From positions 1-35,683 of IMG/VR virus record IMGVR_UViG_3300025096_000064: a DNA stretch of 35,683 bases, one strand, 5' to 3'. A program made the translations under genes and the position numbers. The DNA comes from a virus. Below the pieces are notes generated by a model, which worked only from the letters and a program-made list of their open reading frames with translations, made no database searches and was not told the origin of the DNA. Below, piece after piece: positions 1 through 11,700 of this stretch; within the stretch, counting starts at the first letter, position 1; each line of letters starts with the position of its first letter.

Positions 1-10
1 ACAACACAAA

Positions 11-187
11 ATGCAAGACCTAACTGATGAAATCTATTCCTTTATTCTCCAAGAATATAAGGATTCAGGATGTGAACTATTTGATGAAATGTTTCTCACC
101 CAATTCAATTATGTCGGAGGATATCAAACACAAATGAGCGCTGTGTGCCAATTGGTAAACTGTCACACATCGCGGCAGGGAGCATAA
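11..187 (+). CDS. Small hypothetical protein (58 aa), start uncertain
   Basis: An open frame of 58 codons starts at the ATG at 11 and stops at TAA 185-187. I do not recognise the family. The N-terminal half is acidic and looks helical (MQDLTDEIYSFILQEYKDSG) and contains two cysteines over its length; no membrane segment or known motif is visible. No clear ribosome binding site precedes the ATG, and the frame stays open to the window edge, so the true start may lie upstream of the window. The last 15 codons run through an element related to the one found just after the stop of the gene at 320-502, so the natural C-terminus may have been altered by rearrangement. A terminator hairpin follows at 261-282. 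It is probably a small accessory gene; the coding call is moderate. Confidence 0.45.
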   Translation: MQDLTDEIYSFILQEYKDSGCELFDEMFLTQFNYVGGYQTQMSAVCQLVNCHTSRQGA

Positions 188-188
188 T

Positions 189-194
189 TATAAT
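189..194 (+). promoter_or_regulatory. Isolated TATAAT -10-like hexamer
   Basis: A perfect TATAAT lies just after the first stop codon. There is no matching -35 hexamer 15-19 nt upstream, and the only thing downstream before the next terminator is a pair of inverted repeats. It could drive a very short leader RNA that ends at the terminator 261-282, or it could be chance. Confidence 0.25.
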
Positions 195-198
195 GCCA

Positions 199-254
199 CA
201 GTTCTCACCATAAGCGAACTGCTGCAAGTTTTTTATGACAGTTCCGGAACTGTC
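199..254 (+). repeat. Paired inverted repeats built from CAGTTC/GAACTG half-sites
   Basis: CAGTTC at 199-204 is matched by GAACTG at 216-221 (11-nt gap). A perfect 18-nt palindrome at 237-254, GACAGTTCCGGAACTGTC, repeats the same two half-sites at 239-244 and 247-252. Four copies of one 6-nt half-site within 54 nt could be protein operators, or two alternative RNA hairpins ahead of the terminator at 261-282. Confidence 0.5.
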
Positions 255-260
255 CCCCTC

Positions 261-282
261 ACTCCCTCGAGGGGGGTTTTTT
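261..282 (+). terminator. Rho-independent terminator upstream of first cassette
   Basis: CTCCC and GGGGG arms around a TCGA loop (one T-G pair) are followed by a run of six T. The T-run leads straight into the TATAAT of the next promoter at 288-293, the same terminator-promoter fusion seen in the two following cassettes. Confidence 0.65.
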
Positions 283-287
283 GTGTG

Positions 288-293
288 TATAAT
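288..293 (+). promoter_or_regulatory. Sigma70-type -10 box of cassette 1
   Basis: A perfect TATAAT is preceded by GTGTG and followed by a GTAC-containing initial transcribed region, closely matching the -10 regions at 552-557 and 874-879. No good -35 is present; that position is occupied by the terminator hairpin. The distance from the first base of the box to the ATG at 320 is 32 nt, identical in all three cassettes. Confidence 0.65.
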
Positions 294-319
294 CAGTGAG
301 TACCGAGGGCGACACCTTA

Positions 320-502
320 ATGGATTGGTTTTCTGAGCATCTGCTAAACTCGACTCACTGGATTTATATCCGTTTGCTTGAGGACGCACCACGCGACAGG
401 ATCCACCGCCACTTGACCCTGATTTTCGATATTGGGGTCCGTGATACGGTTAACTGGAGACTGGGCGATGAGATTGACTTCTCTGCCTGTCCCGGTGATT
501 GA
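320..502 (+). CDS. Small hypothetical protein of cassette 1 (60 aa)
   Basis: The frame runs from ATG 320 to TGA 500-502. A GTG at 296 would extend it upstream, but that codon lies at the expected transcription start, and the ATG aligns with the start codons of the next two cassettes (CGA-N-ACC-NNN-start). A GAGGG stretch at 305-309 may serve as ribosome binding site. The product is rich in Trp, Asp and Arg, with a helical N-terminus (MDWFSEHLLNSTHWIYIRLL) and no recognised domain. Its own promoter (288-293) and terminator (523-546) make it a self-contained transcription unit, probably expressed early by the host polymerase. Function unknown. Confidence 0.6.
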   Translation: MDWFSEHLLNSTHWIYIRLLEDAPRDRIHRHLTLIFDIGVRDTVNWRLGDEIDFSACPGD

Positions 503-522
503 TCAGTTGATAAAGTGACACA

Positions 523-546
523 AGCACCCTACGGGGTGCTTTTTTT
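523..546 (+). terminator. Rho-independent terminator of cassette 1
   Basis: The perfect stem AGCACCC / GGGTGCT around a TACG loop is followed by seven T including the last stem base. It closes the gene ending at 502 and lies directly against the next -10 box. Confidence 0.9.
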
Positions 547-551
547 GTGGG

Positions 552-557
552 TATAAT
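552..557 (+). promoter_or_regulatory. Sigma70-type -10 box of cassette 2
   Basis: A perfect TATAAT sits six bases after the terminator T-run, 32 nt from its first base to the start codon at 584. The -35 position (529-534) falls inside the hairpin and does not resemble TTGACA. Confidence 0.7.
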
Positions 558-583
558 ACAGGGGTACACAAGACGAGACCACT

Positions 584-835
584 TTGACCGCTTCCGCCAT
601 GACCAACACGACTGACAACGGTTGGGCAAATTATGAGACTTGGAACGCTTCACTATGGATCGACAACGACGAGACCATCTACCGCCACGCCAAAGAAAAC
701 CAAAATCTTGGTTACCGCAAATGGGCAATGCGTTTCATCGATGAGTTCGGCGAGTACAACACAGGTGACGGCGTTGCCTGGTTGAGCGACAAGATCAACA
801 CCGATGAAATGGATGAGATGCTTGCCGAACTGTGA
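584..835 (+). CDS. Small NYETW-motif phage protein (83 aa), TTG start
   Basis: The product carries NGWANYETWNASLWIDND at about residues 12-29, the signature of a widespread family of short phage and bacterial proteins (N-Y-E-T-W followed by a hydrophobic stretch and an acidic patch). Function is unknown to me. The TTG at 584 is chosen over the in-frame ATG at 599 because it lies exactly 32 nt from the -10 box, as do the starts of the flanking cassettes, and it aligns with the ATG of cassette 1. The protein is acidic, with an acidic C-terminus (TDEMDEMLAEL) and no signal peptide or membrane segment. It sits between its own promoter (552-557) and terminator (845-868). A degraded copy of codons 11-24 lies at 1139-1179. 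Confidence 0.75.
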   Translation: MTASAMTNTTDNGWANYETWNASLWIDNDETIYRHAKENQNLGYRKWAMRFIDEFGEYNTGDGVAWLSDKINTDEMDEMLAEL

Positions 836-844
836 ACTGGCACA

Positions 845-868
845 AGCACCCTACGGGGTGCTTTTTTT
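845..868 (+). terminator. Rho-independent terminator of cassette 2
   Basis: Identical hairpin and T-run to 523-546, located 9 nt after the stop codon of the gene at 584-835. Confidence 0.9.
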
Positions 869-873
869 GTGGG

Positions 874-879
874 TATAAT
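874..879 (+). promoter_or_regulatory. Sigma70-type -10 box of cassette 3
   Basis: A perfect TATAAT, identical in sequence context to the box at 552-557, 32 nt from its first base to the TTG at 906. Confidence 0.7.
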
Positions 880-905
880 ACAGGGGTACACAAGACGAGA
901 CCATT

Positions 906-1130
906 TTGACCGTTTCTACGCCTGATCAAACTTACATAGTTGTCGGCGGAAATGCTTATATAATGGATTCTATTAACGACACTCCTTATGGTGCTCCTGT
1001 TAATACTGACGGCACTATAGATTGGGATTGCACTTATGATTTTGATCCCCGTATGGATGAGGATCTTATGATAGAAACCACTAAGATTTTACACACCCTT
1101 AAGCAACTTGCTCAACTCACACATGACTGA
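906..1130 (+). CDS. Small acidic hypothetical protein of cassette 3 (74 aa), TTG start
   Basis: The frame runs from TTG 906 to TGA 1128-1130. The TTG is preferred over the ATG at 963 because its position relative to the -10 box is the same as in the two preceding cassettes. The product is acidic (many Asp and Glu) with a short beta-like N-terminal stretch (QTYIVVGGNAYIMDSI), a DWDCTYDFDPRMDED segment, and a helical C-terminus ending in LKQLAQLTHD. The family is not recognised. Unlike cassettes 1 and 2, it has no terminator after its stop. Instead the stop codon sits inside a 14-nt copy of the gene's own 5' end, followed by rearranged fragments, so the original 3' end has probably been lost or replaced. 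Confidence 0.6.
   Translation: MTVSTPDQTYIVVGGNAYIMDSINDTPYGAPVNTDGTIDWDCTYDFDPRMDEDLMIETTKILHTLKQLAQLTHD
922..935 (+). repeat. 14-nt direct repeat, copy 1
   Basis: CTGATCAAACTTAC near the start of the cassette-3 gene is repeated exactly at 1127-1140, where it covers that gene's stop codon and abuts the NYETW gene fragment. It looks like a recombination junction. Confidence 0.85.
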
Positions 1131-1140
1131 TCAAACTTAC
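1127..1140 (+). repeat. 14-nt direct repeat, copy 2 (junction)
   Basis: Exact copy of 922-935. Its last two bases are shared with the start of the duplicated NYETW fragment at 1139, marking a join between pieces of cassettes 3 and 2. Confidence 0.85.
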
Positions 1141-1179
1141 AACGGTTGAGCAAATTATGAGACCTGGAACGCTTTACTA
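1139..1179 (+). pseudogene. Fragment of duplicated NYETW gene
   Basis: These 41 nt match 615-655 at 38 positions. In the frame of the parent gene they would read N-G-stop-A-N-Y-E-T-W-N-A-L-L: the Trp codon TGG after Asn-Gly has become TGA. Neither the parental promoter nor the rest of the gene is present. The next 11 nt, ATGACCAACAC, copy the parent's 599-609, out of the original order. Confidence 0.8.
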
Positions 1180-1386
1180 ATGACCAACACTTTTCAAAAC
1201 CTGAACAACATCATTGACGAACTTCGTGCCTCTGGTGTAGAACCTAAAATCACTAAGTTAAAAACAAGGAAGGCAAGAAAGGCAGACTTAGTGTTCACAA
1301 GTGGGCACAGAACCACAGGGGTCAGAGCAGCAGGGGTGAAACTTAGGGGAGGCAATGGACACAATGCAGGGGGCAAAGTTGGTTGA
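1180..1386 (+). CDS. Small basic hypothetical protein (68 aa), doubtful
   Basis: An open frame runs from ATG 1180 to TGA 1384-1386. Its first 11 nt duplicate part of the NYETW gene (599-609), so the start codon appears to have been supplied by the rearrangement. The product has a helical N-terminus, a basic middle (KLKTRKARKADL) and a Gly-rich C-terminus, all of low complexity. No promoter or convincing ribosome binding site is visible directly upstream. It could be the remnant of an older gene with a new 5' end, or non-coding. I do not recognise a family. Confidence 0.35.
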   Translation: MTNTFQNLNNIIDELRASGVEPKITKLKTRKARKADLVFTSGHRTTGVRAAGVKLRGGNGHNAGGKVG

Positions 1387-1482
1387 TTAAGTGTTAATTA
1401 GTGGCGCACGGTAAGTGTTATCGTGCGTGACACTTTTGCCCTTATATAACGTGAATCAGCAGTTATTGCGGTTCTGGCGGTT

Positions 1483-1500
1483 CGTTGCCGCGCGGCGATG
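1483..1500 (+). repeat. GC-rich hairpin
   Basis: Arms CGTTGCC and GGCGATG around GCGC can form a 7-bp stem with G-T pairs, within a local GC-rich patch that contrasts with the A-rich sequence on its right. No T-run follows, so it is not a classic terminator. Confidence 0.45.
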
Positions 1501-1589
1501 CGGTTATAAAAAAGAAGGGTCCCCCTAGTCTACAGAGGTGACAAATCGAGAGAGAGAAATGTCTTAAGAAAAAAAAATCCCCCAGAATT

Positions 1590-1618
1590 TTGGATGACTC
1601 AAAAACCCCTGGTATACT
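1590..1618 (+). promoter_or_regulatory. Extended -10 sigma70-like promoter
   Basis: TTGGAT at 1590-1595 lies 17 nt before TATACT at 1613-1618, and TGG directly before the -10 box makes an extended -10. Transcription would begin near 1625, into sequence without genes. Confidence 0.5.
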
Positions 1619-1706
1619 CAGGTATCAAGTCCTCAGATCTGGAAGGCACTACTTAAATCAAAGAGGTAAAAAAAAATCTCGGAAAATTTTTAACATCCCC
1701 ACAGGG

Positions 1707-1735
1707 TTGCAAAACCTCTTGATCTGGCATATAAT
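1707..1735 (+). promoter_or_regulatory. Sigma70-like promoter ahead of the 44-nt hairpin
   Basis: TTGCAA at 1707-1712, a 17-nt spacer and a perfect TATAAT at 1730-1735. The predicted start near 1742 is about 10 nt before the strong hairpin 1752-1795. Confidence 0.55.
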
Positions 1736-1751
1736 ACGTTAGCACTCAGAG

Positions 1752-1795
1752 GGTATCTCGTATGAGAGGTTCTCTGACAGTGTACGAGATATACC
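1752..1795 (+). repeat. 44-nt imperfect inverted repeat, possible structured RNA
   Basis: The 5' arm GGTATCTCGTA pairs with the 3' arm TACGAGATATACC through 11 base pairs with a 2-nt bulge. The 20-nt interior can form a smaller stem, GAGA-GGT-TCTC (1764-1774). It begins about 10 nt after a predicted transcription start. No T-run follows, so it is not a simple terminator. Confidence 0.6.
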
Positions 1796-1819
1796 GCCAG
1801 GTTTTAATTGCAGTAATCT

Positions 1820-1835
1820 AAAAAAAAAAAAAAAA
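1820..1835 (+). repeat. Homopolymer of 16 A
   Basis: Sixteen A residues between the hairpin region and the gene at 1900. On the opposite strand this is a T-run preceded by AGCGCT, but no gene points toward it, so a reverse-strand terminator role is unsupported. Length may be unreliable in sequencing. Confidence 0.8.
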
Positions 1836-1899
1836 GCGCTTCTCATCCTCAAACTTCTAGCCTAAATAAGGGTAGGTGAAGGACCAGATACATTTTTTT

Positions 1900-2073
1900 A
1901 TGTCATATCGAGTCAAAGCAACTACGACGGGCGTGATCTTCTGTGACAATATCCCGACACGGGAGGAAGCAGAGCGTCATATATTGTCCATTAGTGGGTT
2001 AATCGCTCTGACTGGTATACATACAGACTATAAAGTCGAAGATTTTAAAATCGAGAAAGTTAAAGATAACTGA
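1900..2073 (+). CDS. Small hypothetical protein (57 aa)
   Basis: The frame ends at TGA 2071-2073. I place the start at ATG 1900, giving a protein that opens with an amphipathic strand (MSYRVKATTTGVIFCDNI) followed by a helix (TREEAERHILSI) and a second strand ending in KVEDFKIEKVKDN, a compact alpha/beta pattern common in small phage proteins. An in-frame GTG at 1876 would add eight residues. Neither start has an ideally spaced ribosome binding site: GAAGGA lies at 1879-1884, somewhat far from 1900. It may be transcribed from the promoter at 1707-1735, making the hairpin 1752-1795 part of its 5' leader. Family not recognised. Confidence 0.55.
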   Translation: MSYRVKATTTGVIFCDNIPTREEAERHILSISGLIALTGIHTDYKVEDFKIEKVKDN

Positions 2074-2074
2074 C

Positions 2075-2103
2075 TTGACATTTTATTTTTACTCATCTAA
2101 AAT
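2075..2103 (+). promoter_or_regulatory. Near-consensus sigma70 promoter of the glycosyltransferase gene
   Basis: A perfect TTGACA (2075-2080), a 17-nt spacer and TAAAAT (2098-2103, 5 of 6) lie immediately after the previous stop codon. Transcription would start near 2110, about 20 nt before the ATG at 2130. Confidence 0.75.
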
Positions 2104-2129
2104 TGAACTGAACACAAGGAAAACAACTA

Positions 2130-2903
2130 ATGTCAAAAGGATTTGTAGTCAAAGCAAATAACCCTACAGCAGGTAATAAAGGACCTGAGTGGGACTACGA
2201 CAAAATTAAAGAGCGTTGGAGGGGCAAAAAGATTGTCTTCTGTCTTCCTGGTCGTGGATGCTCATATACATTTCTTAAGAGCTTTGTCCAACTATCGTTT
2301 GACCTGGTTCAGAATGGAATGAGTATTCAAATCAGTCAGGACTACTCATCGATGGTTAACTTTGCCCGTTGTAAGGTTTTGGGTGCAAACGTTCTCCGTG
2401 GTCCCAATCAAAAACCTTGGGATGGCAAACTAGAATATGACTATCAACTTTGGATTGATAGTGACATCGTATTCAGTACTGAAAAGTTCTGGCAACTAGC
2501 AGACGTTGCTATTCCTGCAGAGGGTGATGAGAAAGAGATTGCAGCAGGTTGGTATATGACTGAAGATGGTCGTACTACATCCGTTGCTCACTGGTTGGAG
2601 GAAGATGAATTCCGTAAGAACGGTGGTGTAATGAATCACGAGACTGGAGAGTCCATCAGCAAGCGTAAGAAACCCTTTACTGTTGACTACACTGGTTTTG
2701 GTTGGGTGATGATTAAGAACGGCGTCTTTGAGCGTATGGAGTATCCTTGGTTTGCTCCTAAGATGCAGCAGTTTGAATCTGGTGCTGTACAAGATATGTG
2801 TGGAGAGGACGTGTCCTTCTGTCTCGATGCTAAGGAACTTGGTATTGAGACCTGGTGTGATCCACGTATCCGTGTTGGTCACGAAAAGACTCGCGTTATT
2901 TGA
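2130..2903 (+). CDS. GT-A-fold glycosyltransferase-like protein (257 aa)
   Basis: The product looks like a nucleotide-sugar-dependent transferase of the GT-A type. The hydrophobic strand KIVFCLPGRG (about residues 34-43) opens the fold. LWIDSDIVF carries the DxD metal and nucleotide-sugar motif (D110, S111, D112). GEDVSFC (225-231) supplies the acidic residue typical of a catalytic base, and RVGHEK near the C-terminus has the His (251) often seen as a metal ligand. No signal peptide or membrane segment is visible. AAGGAAA at about 2117-2123 is a good ribosome binding site for ATG 2130. The gene has its own near-consensus promoter (2075-2103). Similar genes are common in cyanomyoviruses; the acceptor (host surface glycan, phage protein or DNA) cannot be told from sequence. 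Confidence 0.85.
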   Translation: MSKGFVVKANNPTAGNKGPEWDYDKIKERWRGKKIVFCLPGRGCSYTFLKSFVQLSFDLVQNGMSIQISQDYSSMVNFARCKVLGANVLRGPNQKPWDGKLEYDYQLWIDSDIVFSTEKFWQLADVAIPAEGDEKEIAAGWYMTEDGRTTSVAHWLEEDEFRKNGGVMNHETGESISKRKKPFTVDYTGFGWVMIKNGVFERMEYPWFAPKMQQFESGAVQDMCGEDVSFCLDAKELGIETWCDPRIRVGHEKTRVI

Positions 2904-2923
2904 TTTAATAGGAGAAACAGATT

Positions 2924-3070
2924 ATGGCAAAAATGAAAAAGTCCCTCTTGGGCAACTTGATGATCGAGTCTACACCAAAGAAGACTCGTCAGGGTACTGG
3001 TAAGCATACAAAGTACGCAGCATCAAGTTGTAACGCAAAACAAAAGCGTTATCGTGGTCAAGGTCGTTGA
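2924..3070 (+). CDS. Small, very basic conserved cyanophage protein (48 aa)
   Basis: An ATG at 2924 with AGGAG at 2910-2914 begins a 48-codon frame ending at TGA 3068-3070. The sequence opens with MAKMKKSLLGNLMIES and continues with a stretch dense in Lys and Arg (KKTRQGTGKHTK, AKQKRYRGQGR). Small proteins with this GTGKHTKYA...KRYRGQGR pattern recur in T4-like cyanophages as I remember them, with no assigned function. The charge suggests binding to nucleic acid or ribosomes, which is inference. It lies 20 nt after the glycosyltransferase gene, probably shares its transcript, and is closed by the terminator at 3078-3104. Confidence 0.75.
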   Translation: MAKMKKSLLGNLMIESTPKKTRQGTGKHTKYAASSCNAKQKRYRGQGR

Positions 3071-3077
3071 TATATAT

Positions 3078-3104
3078 GACTCTCCTTCGGGAGGGTCTTT
3101 TTTT
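3078..3104 (+). terminator. Rho-independent terminator after the basic protein gene
   Basis: Arms GACTCTCC and GGAGGGTC (one T-G pair) around a TTCG tetraloop, followed by seven T. It separates the glycosyltransferase unit from the late block. Confidence 0.9.
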
Positions 3105-3105
3105 A

Positions 3106-3113
3106 TATAAATT
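3106..3113 (+). promoter_or_regulatory. Weak late-promoter-like motif
   Basis: TATAAATT differs at one base from the T4-type late motif (TATAAATA; NATAAATA in cyanophages) and lies between a terminator and the small gene at 3193. Confidence 0.3.
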
Positions 3114-3192
3114 AATATAGACGAGTACTTCCAGAAAACAGCAAAAGAACGGAGTAATGACTCCGACACCGAACAACCCGAGGACCCAACAG

Positions 3193-3351
3193 ATGACAAC
3201 TAACCAAAATTCAGATATGTATAAGGCGTGGAAGAAGTCGCGACTAATTAATGATTATTGGTCAAGTAAGACAATCCAAAAGGAAAAGGAACTCAGAGAG
3301 GTTGTTGGTGACAATATTGATGAAGATGGTGTAGAAATGTTGAACGAATAA
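3193..3351 (+). CDS. Small hypothetical protein (52 aa, or 64 aa from the upstream ATG)
   Basis: Two in-frame ATGs are possible. The one at 3157 has GGAG only 2 nt upstream, too close for normal initiation; the one at 3193 has GAGGA at 3180-3184 with 8-nt spacing, so I prefer it. The product is hydrophilic and mostly helical (MYKAWKKSRLINDYW, then TIQKEKELREVVGDN) with an acidic C-terminus, no recognised domain and no membrane segment. It is the last small gene before the baseplate cluster and ends 18 nt before the late-promoter motif of gp25. Function unknown. Confidence 0.55.
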   Translation: MTTNQNSDMYKAWKKSRLINDYWSSKTIQKEKELREVVGDNIDEDGVEMLNE

Positions 3352-3369
3352 AAAACTTATATTTACTAT

Positions 3370-3377
3370 AATAAATA
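3370..3377 (+). promoter_or_regulatory. Late promoter motif AATAAATA upstream of gp25
   Basis: Matches the cyanophage late consensus NATAAATA, 29 nt before the gp25 start. It probably drives the long baseplate operon gp25, gp6 and the gp7-like giant. Confidence 0.6.
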
Positions 3378-3405
3378 AGGCAGAAGGAGTCTCAATCTCA
3401 TACTC

Positions 3406-3816
3406 ATGCCTGTCGAGGTCACACAACGCACATCTAGAGGATTTAAGGACATCAGTATGTCCTTTCAAGAGAATCCCCTGACAAATGACCTCATTCCATT
3501 GAAGAATGAGAATGCCATTGCTCAGTCGATTAAAAATCTGATTTTAACATCTCCAGGAGAAAGATTCTTTAATCCCAATCTTGGATCTGGTATTTTTGAA
3601 TCACTTTTTGATAACATTGATTTTATTTCTGCAACTCAGCTTCAAGCATCGGCTGAGAATATAATTAATACATATGAACCAAGAGTGAGACTCATTGAAG
3701 TCAAGGTTGATCCGAGACCCGATGATAATGCCTTTGTCATGACAGTCAGTTACGAAATTGTTGGCATTAATGCTGCAGCACAATCTCTATCATTTCCACT
3801 CACTAAAATAAGGTAG
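3406..3816 (+). CDS. 25: Baseplate wedge protein gp25
   Basis: At 136 residues it is close in size to T4 gp25 (132), the lysozyme-fold baseplate wedge component that joins gp6 and gp53 and helps trigger sheath assembly. The pattern is characteristic: a short N-terminal extension, then FKDISMSFQENPLTNDLIPLKN, a helix NAIAQSIKNLILTSPGERFF ending in the conserved GERFFNP turn, and a C-terminal strand with VDPRPDDNAFVMTVSYEIV. Start at ATG 3406; AGAAGGAG at 3382-3389 is the nearest ribosome binding site and is rather distant. The gp6 gene follows after 6 nt. The equivalent tail genes in contractile injection systems belong to the gp25-like (TssE/GPW) family. Confidence 0.93.
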   Translation: MPVEVTQRTSRGFKDISMSFQENPLTNDLIPLKNENAIAQSIKNLILTSPGERFFNPNLGSGIFESLFDNIDFISATQLQASAENIINTYEPRVRLIEVKVDPRPDDNAFVMTVSYEIVGINAAAQSLSFPLTKIR

Positions 3817-8700: not shown

Positions 8701-11700
8701 GAGTTTAACTACGAACCCATTGAGGTTAAAGTTGAGGGTATTGTTGGACTTACAACTGTTACCACAACCAAGAGTATTATTGTTGACTCCAGAACCATCC
8801 GTTCAGGGATTGTTACTGAAATTGCAACTGTAGGACAAACTGACTTTGCTTTCTCATATCCAGCAAGACCAAATAGACCACAACTACTTGATGTCTTTAT
8901 GGATGGCATCAGGTTGAATGATGTTGACTATGATGCTACATCAAGCACTCAGATAGTCCTACAATCGCCCGCAAACGGCACAGAGATAGTAGAGATGGTA
9001 AGTTATGCCTCCTCTGTTAGAACGCAGTACACGGAGGTTACAGCGGGTGCTGGACAAACCAACTATCCATTCATTTATTCGCCAGAAAACCTGGATGTTG
9101 TAGTCAATGGCGTAAAACTGCCACAAAGAGATTATGAGTCCGATACAGGAACAACTGTTATCTTAGATTCAGGAGCAGCTGCTGGAGATTCTGTTGAACT
9201 GATTGGATATCCTGATGTTATTAGAAAGGAGACCACAATTACTGCTCAGCAGGGTCAAACCAAGTTTACGTTCCCACATCAAACTGAGTACAGTCTGATT
9301 GATGTTTACTTGAATGGTACTAAGTTGCCCGTAGAGGATTATGACGCAACAAATCAATCCTTTATTGAACTTAATGAACCAACTATTGCTGGAGATGTTG
9401 TATATCTCTCATTCTTTGTATTAAGTGAATTGATATTCCTTGGTTCGGACTTTAATGCAACAGTACAACCAATCTTTAGGGGAAATATTAAGACGGTTGG
9501 TCTTTCTGATAATGGCAGTGGATATGGTTCCAATTCGATTATCAATTATAACAGACAACCACTGTTTACATTGAATAGTGGTAAATCTGCAGAGGTTATC
9601 CCAATCATTGACCAGAAAACTGGTGGTATTCAAGACGTAGTAATTAAGAATACTGGTTCTGGATACAATGCTCCACCAGACCTTGTAATTGCAGGTGAAG
9701 GTCTTGGTGCAATCTTTACTCCAATTGTTAAGAATGGAGTATTGACTGAAATTATTGTTATTAGTCCTGGGCGTGGATATAATCAATCAAATACGACTGT
9801 AAGAGTTGTTGCTGCTGGACTTGGTGCAAAGTTTGATGCAAATATTAAGACTTGGACTTTAAATGAAGTCCAGAAACTGATTGAAAGAAATAAAATATCT
9901 GCAGATGATGGTGTCTTGTATAATCAAACATCTGGTTCATTGGAGTATACACACTTATATGCCCCAAGAGAACTGAGAAAGCAGGTTTATGGTACTAAGT
10001 TTGTAAATGGTATCGAAACATTCTTACCAGATATTGTATTTAATGCTTCAGGTAAAGAAGTTGATAGTACAAGTCACTCTCCAATTATTGGTTGGGCATA
10101 TGATGGAAATCCAATATATGGTCCATATGGTTTTGATACTCCATCTGGTGGTGTTGTTAGGAGAATGCTTTCTGGTTATACAAAAGATTTAAAAACTGGA
10201 AGACCGCCATTATCTGAGTTCCCATTTGGATTGTTTATTGAGGACTTTACTTTTGATAACTCTGGTGACCTTGATGAGCACAATGGTAGATTTGGTATAA
10301 CTCCAGAGTTTCCAAATGGAACGTATGCTTACTTTATGACAATCTCTGATGATTTTGCTCTGAGTGGTCCATTTAAAAACTTTAAGACTCCAGTGTTCCC
10401 ATATGTTGTGGGACAATCGTTTAAATCATCACCAATCCTCTTTAACTTCCACAGCACATCAAATCAAAGCAATATTGATATTAACTCAAGTGGTTGGTTT
10501 AGAAACACTGACCCATATAAACTTGAGTCAGATTTTGCTGCATATCAATATTTGTTTAATCCAAATAAAGTTAGAAAGCAAACATCAGTTGTAAAATACT
10601 CTCAACCTGGTGGTTTGGATAACATTGACATCTACAATGATGGAAAAGGATTTAAGGTAGGTGACAGCATTAACTTCTCTGGCAGCACTGGTAGAGGTGC
10701 TTTTGGTAAAGTCTCGAGACTGACTGGCAAAACTGTTACAAGTATTGCCAACTCAACAACATATGTTGAAAGTATTGAGTTTGTATCCCTAGACAACACT
10801 GGAAGATTTATCGGTGTTGCACCAGAACCACACGGTTTAAAAAATCTTGATATTGTTTCTGTCACTGGACTATCAACATTTAGAACTGATTTAATAGAAA
10901 ATACTCAAATTAGACTGCCTGATGCCTCATTATCACTGACTGCTGGCATCTCTACTGTGAGTATCACGGGTTTTGTTACACATTTCTCACTTGCAAGTAT
11001 TCCTCAGCATCCATTGATTCTGGAAAATGATATTCTGACCGTTGATGATGAGCAAGTAAAAGTTCTCAACGTTGACCGTAATAAATCTAGTATTCGTGTA
11101 TTAAGAGCACAGAACTCAACTGCTGGTTTCCCACACAGTGTTACCTCACCAATTGCACAAGAATCAAGAAGAGTTCAAGTCTCTACAAACTTTAAAAAGT
11201 CAGATTCATCACGTCTTGATAGAGAACTTTATTTTGAACCAGAGACAACAGTTGGTCTTGGTGCTACTTGGGGCGTAGGTATTACATCAACACTATTCCT
11301 GGGTCAGGTCAATCATCAGTCACCTGTTAGTTTTGAGACCGGAAGTAATACAATTTTACTCTTCCAAAGACCTCAAGATATATCCAACTTTATTGGTGGT
11401 GGTTATGTTTCAATTACAAATCCAACAACATCTGGATTTGCGGTTAATAACGCAAAAGTCCTCTCAGTAGGTTCTACATCTATCACTGTTGACTTTGATA
11501 CTACTACTCTTGTTGGTGGAGGTGTTACTGGATTCCTGAATAGTGTTGTAACTCAAGAGATTCCAACAAGAAGTATCTTTATTGCGGATCATGGATTGAC
11601 AACTGGTGACAGAGTAGTTTATAACTCAAACGGTGGAACATCTCTGACTGTAAAGAGAGATACTGCAGTAAATACAGCACTGACCCAAGACCAAGAACTC

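Follow-up and report, generated by a model that had tools for sequence, protein, structure and literature searches.

A 72-nt sequence that occurs twice, at nearly full identity, in the genome of a T4-like marine cyanophage is likely to be a composite terminator-promoter unit which, together with the small gene that follows it, would form a cassette exchangeable through recombination between units. The window, that is, the whole stretch of DNA analysed here, is an entire metagenome-derived record of a viral collection (35,683 bases), and its type was judged from its proteins and their order (small frames, then gp25, gp6 and giant structural genes). The proposal draws on the anatomy of the units, their fixed internal spacing, their recurrence, and on gene orders that differ between relatives and in which homology breaks off within units or close to them. 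In the proposed scheme, the hairpin and T-run of each unit would end transcription of the preceding gene, while its TATAAT box, devoid of a recognisable -35 box, would start transcription of the following one; an activating protein would most likely bind the inverted repeat that lies at a fixed distance upstream (about -60 to -43). A unit and the single small gene behind it would make a self-contained cassette. Their mutual likeness would allow units to recombine, which would replace, insert, delete or reorder the genes located in between while leaving expression unbroken. Here, the unit driving a DUF7249 gene would recently have been copied, start codon included, to a place ahead of a gene of the phrog_9109 family.

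The repeat itself is unambiguous. Recomputation returned the 71 identities over 72 positions of the original prediction, with C582/T904 as the sole mismatch, and the best ungapped extension (513-594 against 835-916) retains 78 of 82 positions (95%). It has no rival in the window: the runner-up, 68 nt long and 79% identical, belongs to the same cluster, and the remaining repeats, of 25-42 nt at about 70-85% identity, are not comparable. An exact search of other contigs with a 31-nt core of the repeat found no match. From 5' to 3', the repeat comprises the inner half of the inverted repeat, a predicted intrinsic terminator, TATAAT and a short leader, and it reaches into the start codon (Table 1). 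Its 5' edge falls within the inverted repeat, so that duplication is limited to the inner half-site; at the second copy, the outer half coincides with the last bases of the DUF7249 gene and is a poorer match to the consensus, which indicates that the duplication starts inside the inverted repeat. Its 3' edge falls within the first codons, TTGACCGYTTC being common to both copies, and the TTG start of both downstream frames is supplied by the repeat. Beyond this point the coding sequences belong to two distinct known families, DUF7249 and phrog_9109, in agreement with the claim that they are unrelated.

Table 1. Features of the unit cluster in the window (positions in nt; all on the strand shown).
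Feature	Position	Strand	Remarks
Unit 0	148-194	+	Inverted repeat intact at 148-166 (CCAATTGGTAAACTGTCAC); TATAAT at 189-194, spacing 22
Unit A, upstream inverted repeat	237-255	+	GACAGTTCCGGAACTGTCC
Unit A, predicted terminator hairpin and T-run	252-283	+	Overlaps the inverted repeat
Unit A, -10 box TATAAT	288-293	+	31 nt past the inverted repeat
Gene A	320-502	+	60-aa ORF, ATG at 320 (MDWFSEHLL...); homologues in L133 and L148 behind other units
Unit B, upstream inverted repeat	504-521	+	CAGTTGATAAAGTGACAC
Repeat copy 1	519-590	+	
Unit B, predicted intrinsic terminator	522-548	+	8-bp G+C-rich stem, TACG loop, T-run
Unit B, -10 box TATAAT	552-557	+	30 nt past the inverted repeat
Unit B, leader	558-583	+	26 nt, ends at the TTG start codon
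Gene D	584-835	+	TTG start; DUF7249 (PF23907, E 6e-14); phrog_871 (E 4e-26)
Unit C, upstream inverted repeat	827-843	+	Outer half degenerate, within the 3' end of gene D
Repeat copy 2	841-912	+	
Unit C, predicted intrinsic terminator	844-870	+	
Unit C, -10 box TATAAT	874-879	+	30 nt past the inverted repeat
Gene C	906-1130	+	phrog_9109 (T4-GC_800 family), E 4e-15; TTG start from the repeat
Second DUF7249 copy, 5' remnant	1122-1189	+	79% to 598-665; in-frame TGA, TGG in L132

Two diverged siblings, unit A (about 237-319) and unit 0, lie upstream of the pair. Judged from its sequence, unit 0, with no gene ahead of unit A, is an off-spacing relic, that is, a degenerate or emptied cassette, which brings the window to three good units and one relic. 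In favour of a sigma70-like promoter sequence, the units other than this relic have TATAAT at a fixed distance, ahead of a short leader and a start codon; against it, they lack the -35 consensus of strong sigma70 promoters. In units B and C the hairpin and T-run occupy most of the 30-nt gap between the inverted repeat and TATAAT. Reading the repeat as an RNA element was abandoned, as an Rfam search of window positions 1-3500 gave no match, a tRNA search found none, and the leader folds no better than shuffled sequence. The upstream inverted repeat was likewise dropped as an RNA hairpin: its arms show no compensatory change, which makes a protein site preferable. In NtcA-dependent promoters the consensus box, GTA-N8-TAC, lies upstream of the -10 (PMC3037559); this box is not matched here, the conserved upstream element being CAGTTnnnnAAstGkCAC.

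The same plan, an imperfect inverted repeat (cCAGTTnnnnAA[CG]TG[GT]CAC), 29-32 nt, TATAAT, a leader of about 20-30 nt and a small gene, recurs in T4-like cyanophages, with the motif present in Syn1, S-RIM44, ACG-2014h, Syn9 and many contigs. The repeat had been seen as a single duplicated element; the duplication stands, and the element proves to belong to a genome-wide class of putative promoters with further siblings. A weight-matrix scan of three complete phage genomes (Syn1, S-RIM44 and ACG-2014h), nine contigs and the window finds about 56 units, at spacings of 29-32 nt only, and none in five shuffles, the matrix having been trained on sites picked in the same set by TGnCmC...TATAAT, so that part of the hit count follows from the way the matrix was built. 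This bias does not touch the open-spacing counts, the left half-site or the scan of Syn9. Around the 634 TATAAT of the relatives' loci, which were fetched solely for encoding DUF7249, TG[AGT]C[AC]C stands 30, 31 or 32 nt upstream in 15, 17 and 14 cases, and at most 8 times at any other distance up to 83 nt. The pattern TGKCAC-N28..34-TATAAT has 46 matches in 28 records against 2 for the reversed pattern, about a twentyfold excess. In Syn9, which provides a fairer test as it lies outside the training of the matrix while the other genomes lie inside, the matrix finds four sites with a spacing of 29-30 nt, where ten shuffles yield 0-1; the sites lie close to where a helicase, gp150, CobS and gp183 begin. 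Taking the strict operator as sole criterion, TATAAT is found at 30-32 nt in 5 of 18 distinct sites; inspected by eye, the others mostly have TATTGT, TATTAT or similar at that place, and about five have nothing. C and A in the left half and AA[CG]TG[GT]C in the right half are near-invariant, the arms being without covariation, and the first ATG is mostly found 21-29 nt downstream of the -10 box.

Besides units A, B and C of the window, seven distinct units elsewhere have a hairpin and T-run in the spacer. Many siblings are without a terminator, so that terminator and promoter are separable. Units may also stand in tandem: in 37 contigs, found by pattern search, there are 158 units, up to 12 per contig and 9-12 in some of them, often 200-600 nt apart, which is space for one small gene each. 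The strict pattern occurs in at least 120 stretches of viral contigs against 8 in 85,000 prokaryote genomes, near chance level in the latter, and the idea of a promoter derived from the host was dropped on this ground. Two of the eight prokaryote matches have the context of a phage-style unit: L189 and L192 (NHFO01000063.1 and NHFO01000061.1), assigned to the Flavobacteriales MAG TMED113, carry cyanophage promoter units together with Syn9-like proteins and are probably misbinned phage DNA.

The cassettes of the window lie in a variable region just upstream of the gp25 and gp6 homologues, in the order gene A, unit B, DUF7249 (gene D), unit C, phrog_9109 (gene C), DUF7249 remnant. Isolated phages have phrog_9109 as one of the inner genes of a compact operon; in the window, the gene follows a copy of the DUF7249 promoter, and a start codon that is natively ATG in relatives (for example ATG TCT GCT CCT) is the TTG of the repeat. 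We considered gene C as a chimera beginning with ten DUF7249 codons, and dropped this view: phrog_9109 relatives start with MSAPQFY..., which is near STPDQTY, so that the repeat need supply only about the first three codons. The suggestion of a recent duplication fits these observations well, the duplication being visible and gene C standing behind a copy of the DUF7249 unit. An exact 15-nt direct repeat, CTGATCAAACTTACA, flanks gene C (922-936 and 1127-1141) and is common to the DUF7249 remnant.

Comparing gene content between the repeated blocks in relatives had been set beforehand as the way to assess cassette exchange. Three loci, L128, L133 and L148, share several small genes with this region, and in all three the content differs from that of the window. 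L128 has another gene (Y), a unit, DUF7249, a unit, gene M, a unit and a second DUF7249, and its homology to the window at the DNA level covers only positions 496-893, setting in as unit B begins and ending in the leader of unit C. L148 has gene A, a unit, M, a unit and a DUF7249 that resembles the second one of L128; there (9054-9250), the homologue of gene A is deprived of its last codons and cut where the unit begins (CTGGACAATCAATGAACTGACC), a truncation point which is likely a recombination joint. In L133, phrog_9109 comes first, followed by several units and then gene A. Gene A itself stands behind a type-A unit in the window and behind a type-B unit in L133 (84% to unit B), where a type-A unit (87% to unit A of the window) precedes a different gene. 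With the same small genes behind different units and in differing orders, both duplication and cassette exchange are visible, homology breaking in or beside units; the units look like joints for reshuffling this part of the genome. The original prediction, which had foreseen swapping by homologous recombination between repeated promoters, is therefore supported as to the exchange, which is seen in the gene orders; homologous recombination as its route is inferred.

The junction between gene D, unit C and phrog_9109 is based on one metagenomic assembly, and the near-identical contig L132 cannot confirm it, as it starts 6 nt past the repeat. L132 departs from the window in two further places: about 107 of its bases (937-1043), with a small frame, are absent from the window at an A run (1827-1836), and a short tandem duplication near 836-880 is single copy in the window.

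Identity between units leaves some room for gene conversion, in which two old units would have been homogenised recently while the genes next to them stayed in place. Identity is higher between copies of one genome (95% for B and C of the window, 90% for the first two units of L128) than in the orthologous pair formed by B and the first unit of L128 (86%), which fits recent duplication as well as conversion. We nevertheless regard conversion as a rather unlikely explanation, since it accounts neither for the differing gene orders of L128, L133 and L148 nor for the fact that gene C opens with the leader and start codon of DUF7249 rather than with a native ATG; it may operate together with cassette exchange. 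An improbable account, and a poorer one than conversion, is that the DUF7249 gene and its promoter were simply duplicated in tandem, after which the second gene body decayed and an unrelated frame arose behind the promoter that was kept; exchange would then not be needed. The 5' remnant of a second DUF7249 after gene C and the two DUF7249 genes of L128 in this region are what this account would predict. However, gene C is no random frame, as its family is an established one whose members elsewhere include orthologues that form part of an operon, and the remnant is closer to the DUF7249 of other phages (L022, 92% over 52 nt; L018, 95% over 37 nt) than to gene D (79%). Finally, an assembly artefact, joining two molecules through a shared repeat, might be suspected in a metagenome-derived record, the more so as L132 begins just where an assembler that meets a repeat would break, but it is very unlikely, because the two copies differ at one core position and several edge positions, and separately assembled relatives show the same unit-gene-unit pattern.

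The exchangeable cassette that we favour has known counterparts. The promoter-early stem-loop (PeSL) cassettes of T4-type phages, reportedly described by Arbiol in 2010 and Comeau in 2014, are the closest known kind. PeSLs are composite terminator-promoter units in variable T4-like regions where relatives differ, and they have been reported as sparse in cyanophage S-PM2 (PMC4503421). The present units are like them in being small associations of a terminator and a promoter repeated in such a region: going by sequence features, units A, B and C have an adjacent intrinsic-terminator stem-loop, the repeats lie in the hyperplastic region upstream of the gp25 and gp6 homologues, with arrays in related contigs, and gene content between units varies among the window, L128, L133 and L148. 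Unlike PeSLs, they have no -35 box and an upstream inverted repeat at a fixed 29-32 nt, they are without terminator in many cyanophage instances, and here the duplicated block extends over the leader and the start codon. Doron in 2016 is said to have found a long, previously unknown motif at Syn9 early genes, conserved in cyanophages. The upstream motif is probably the same. It is conserved among T4-like cyanophages, is found in its bipartite form in Syn9, and in Syn1 precedes the gp32 gene, a helicase, cobS and small genes; to our knowledge, the report of the Syn9 motif made no link to terminators or cassette exchange. The early and middle (MotA/AsiA) promoters of T4 offer a further parallel, with a TATAAT box, an upstream element and the host RNA polymerase. 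The MotA box of T4 is near -30, unlike the cyanophage element, which is near -53. In cyanomyoviruses, which have no homologue of motA, asiA, alt or mod, the control of early and middle genes was regarded as unclear in 2010 (PMC2984593). Intergenic promoter-stem-loop motifs are also known in the haloarchaeal virus HGTV-1 (PMC3950731); they are of the archaeal promoter type, and we claim no sequence in common. What is new is the union of the PeSL-like and the Syn9-like traits: a promoter, specific to cyanophages and probably early, that has its upstream element at a fixed place, is in many cases joined to a terminator, and is set in arrays of single-gene cassettes open to exchange.

The variable regions of marine cyanophages are rich in very small, uncharacterised genes. 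If each of them arrived with a standard unit, genes could be gained and lost without disturbing expression, and the unit, should the reading hold, would be a sequence tag for spotting cassettes in metagenomes. The near-absence of the inverted repeat from 85,000 prokaryote genomes raises the question of the protein that recognises it, in cyanophages that lack Alt, MotA and AsiA. A bolder view, which we advance only tentatively and find somewhat doubtful, is that of a phage-specific operator-promoter class in which one putative binding protein would switch on dozens of cassettes, the units being recombination ports of an integrase-free platform for gene capture; a gene landing behind a unit would then join the regulon at once. 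At position 181484 of Syn1 (GU071105.1), in L119, a unit lies about 260 nt upstream of psbA, and it has a counterpart in S-RIM44.
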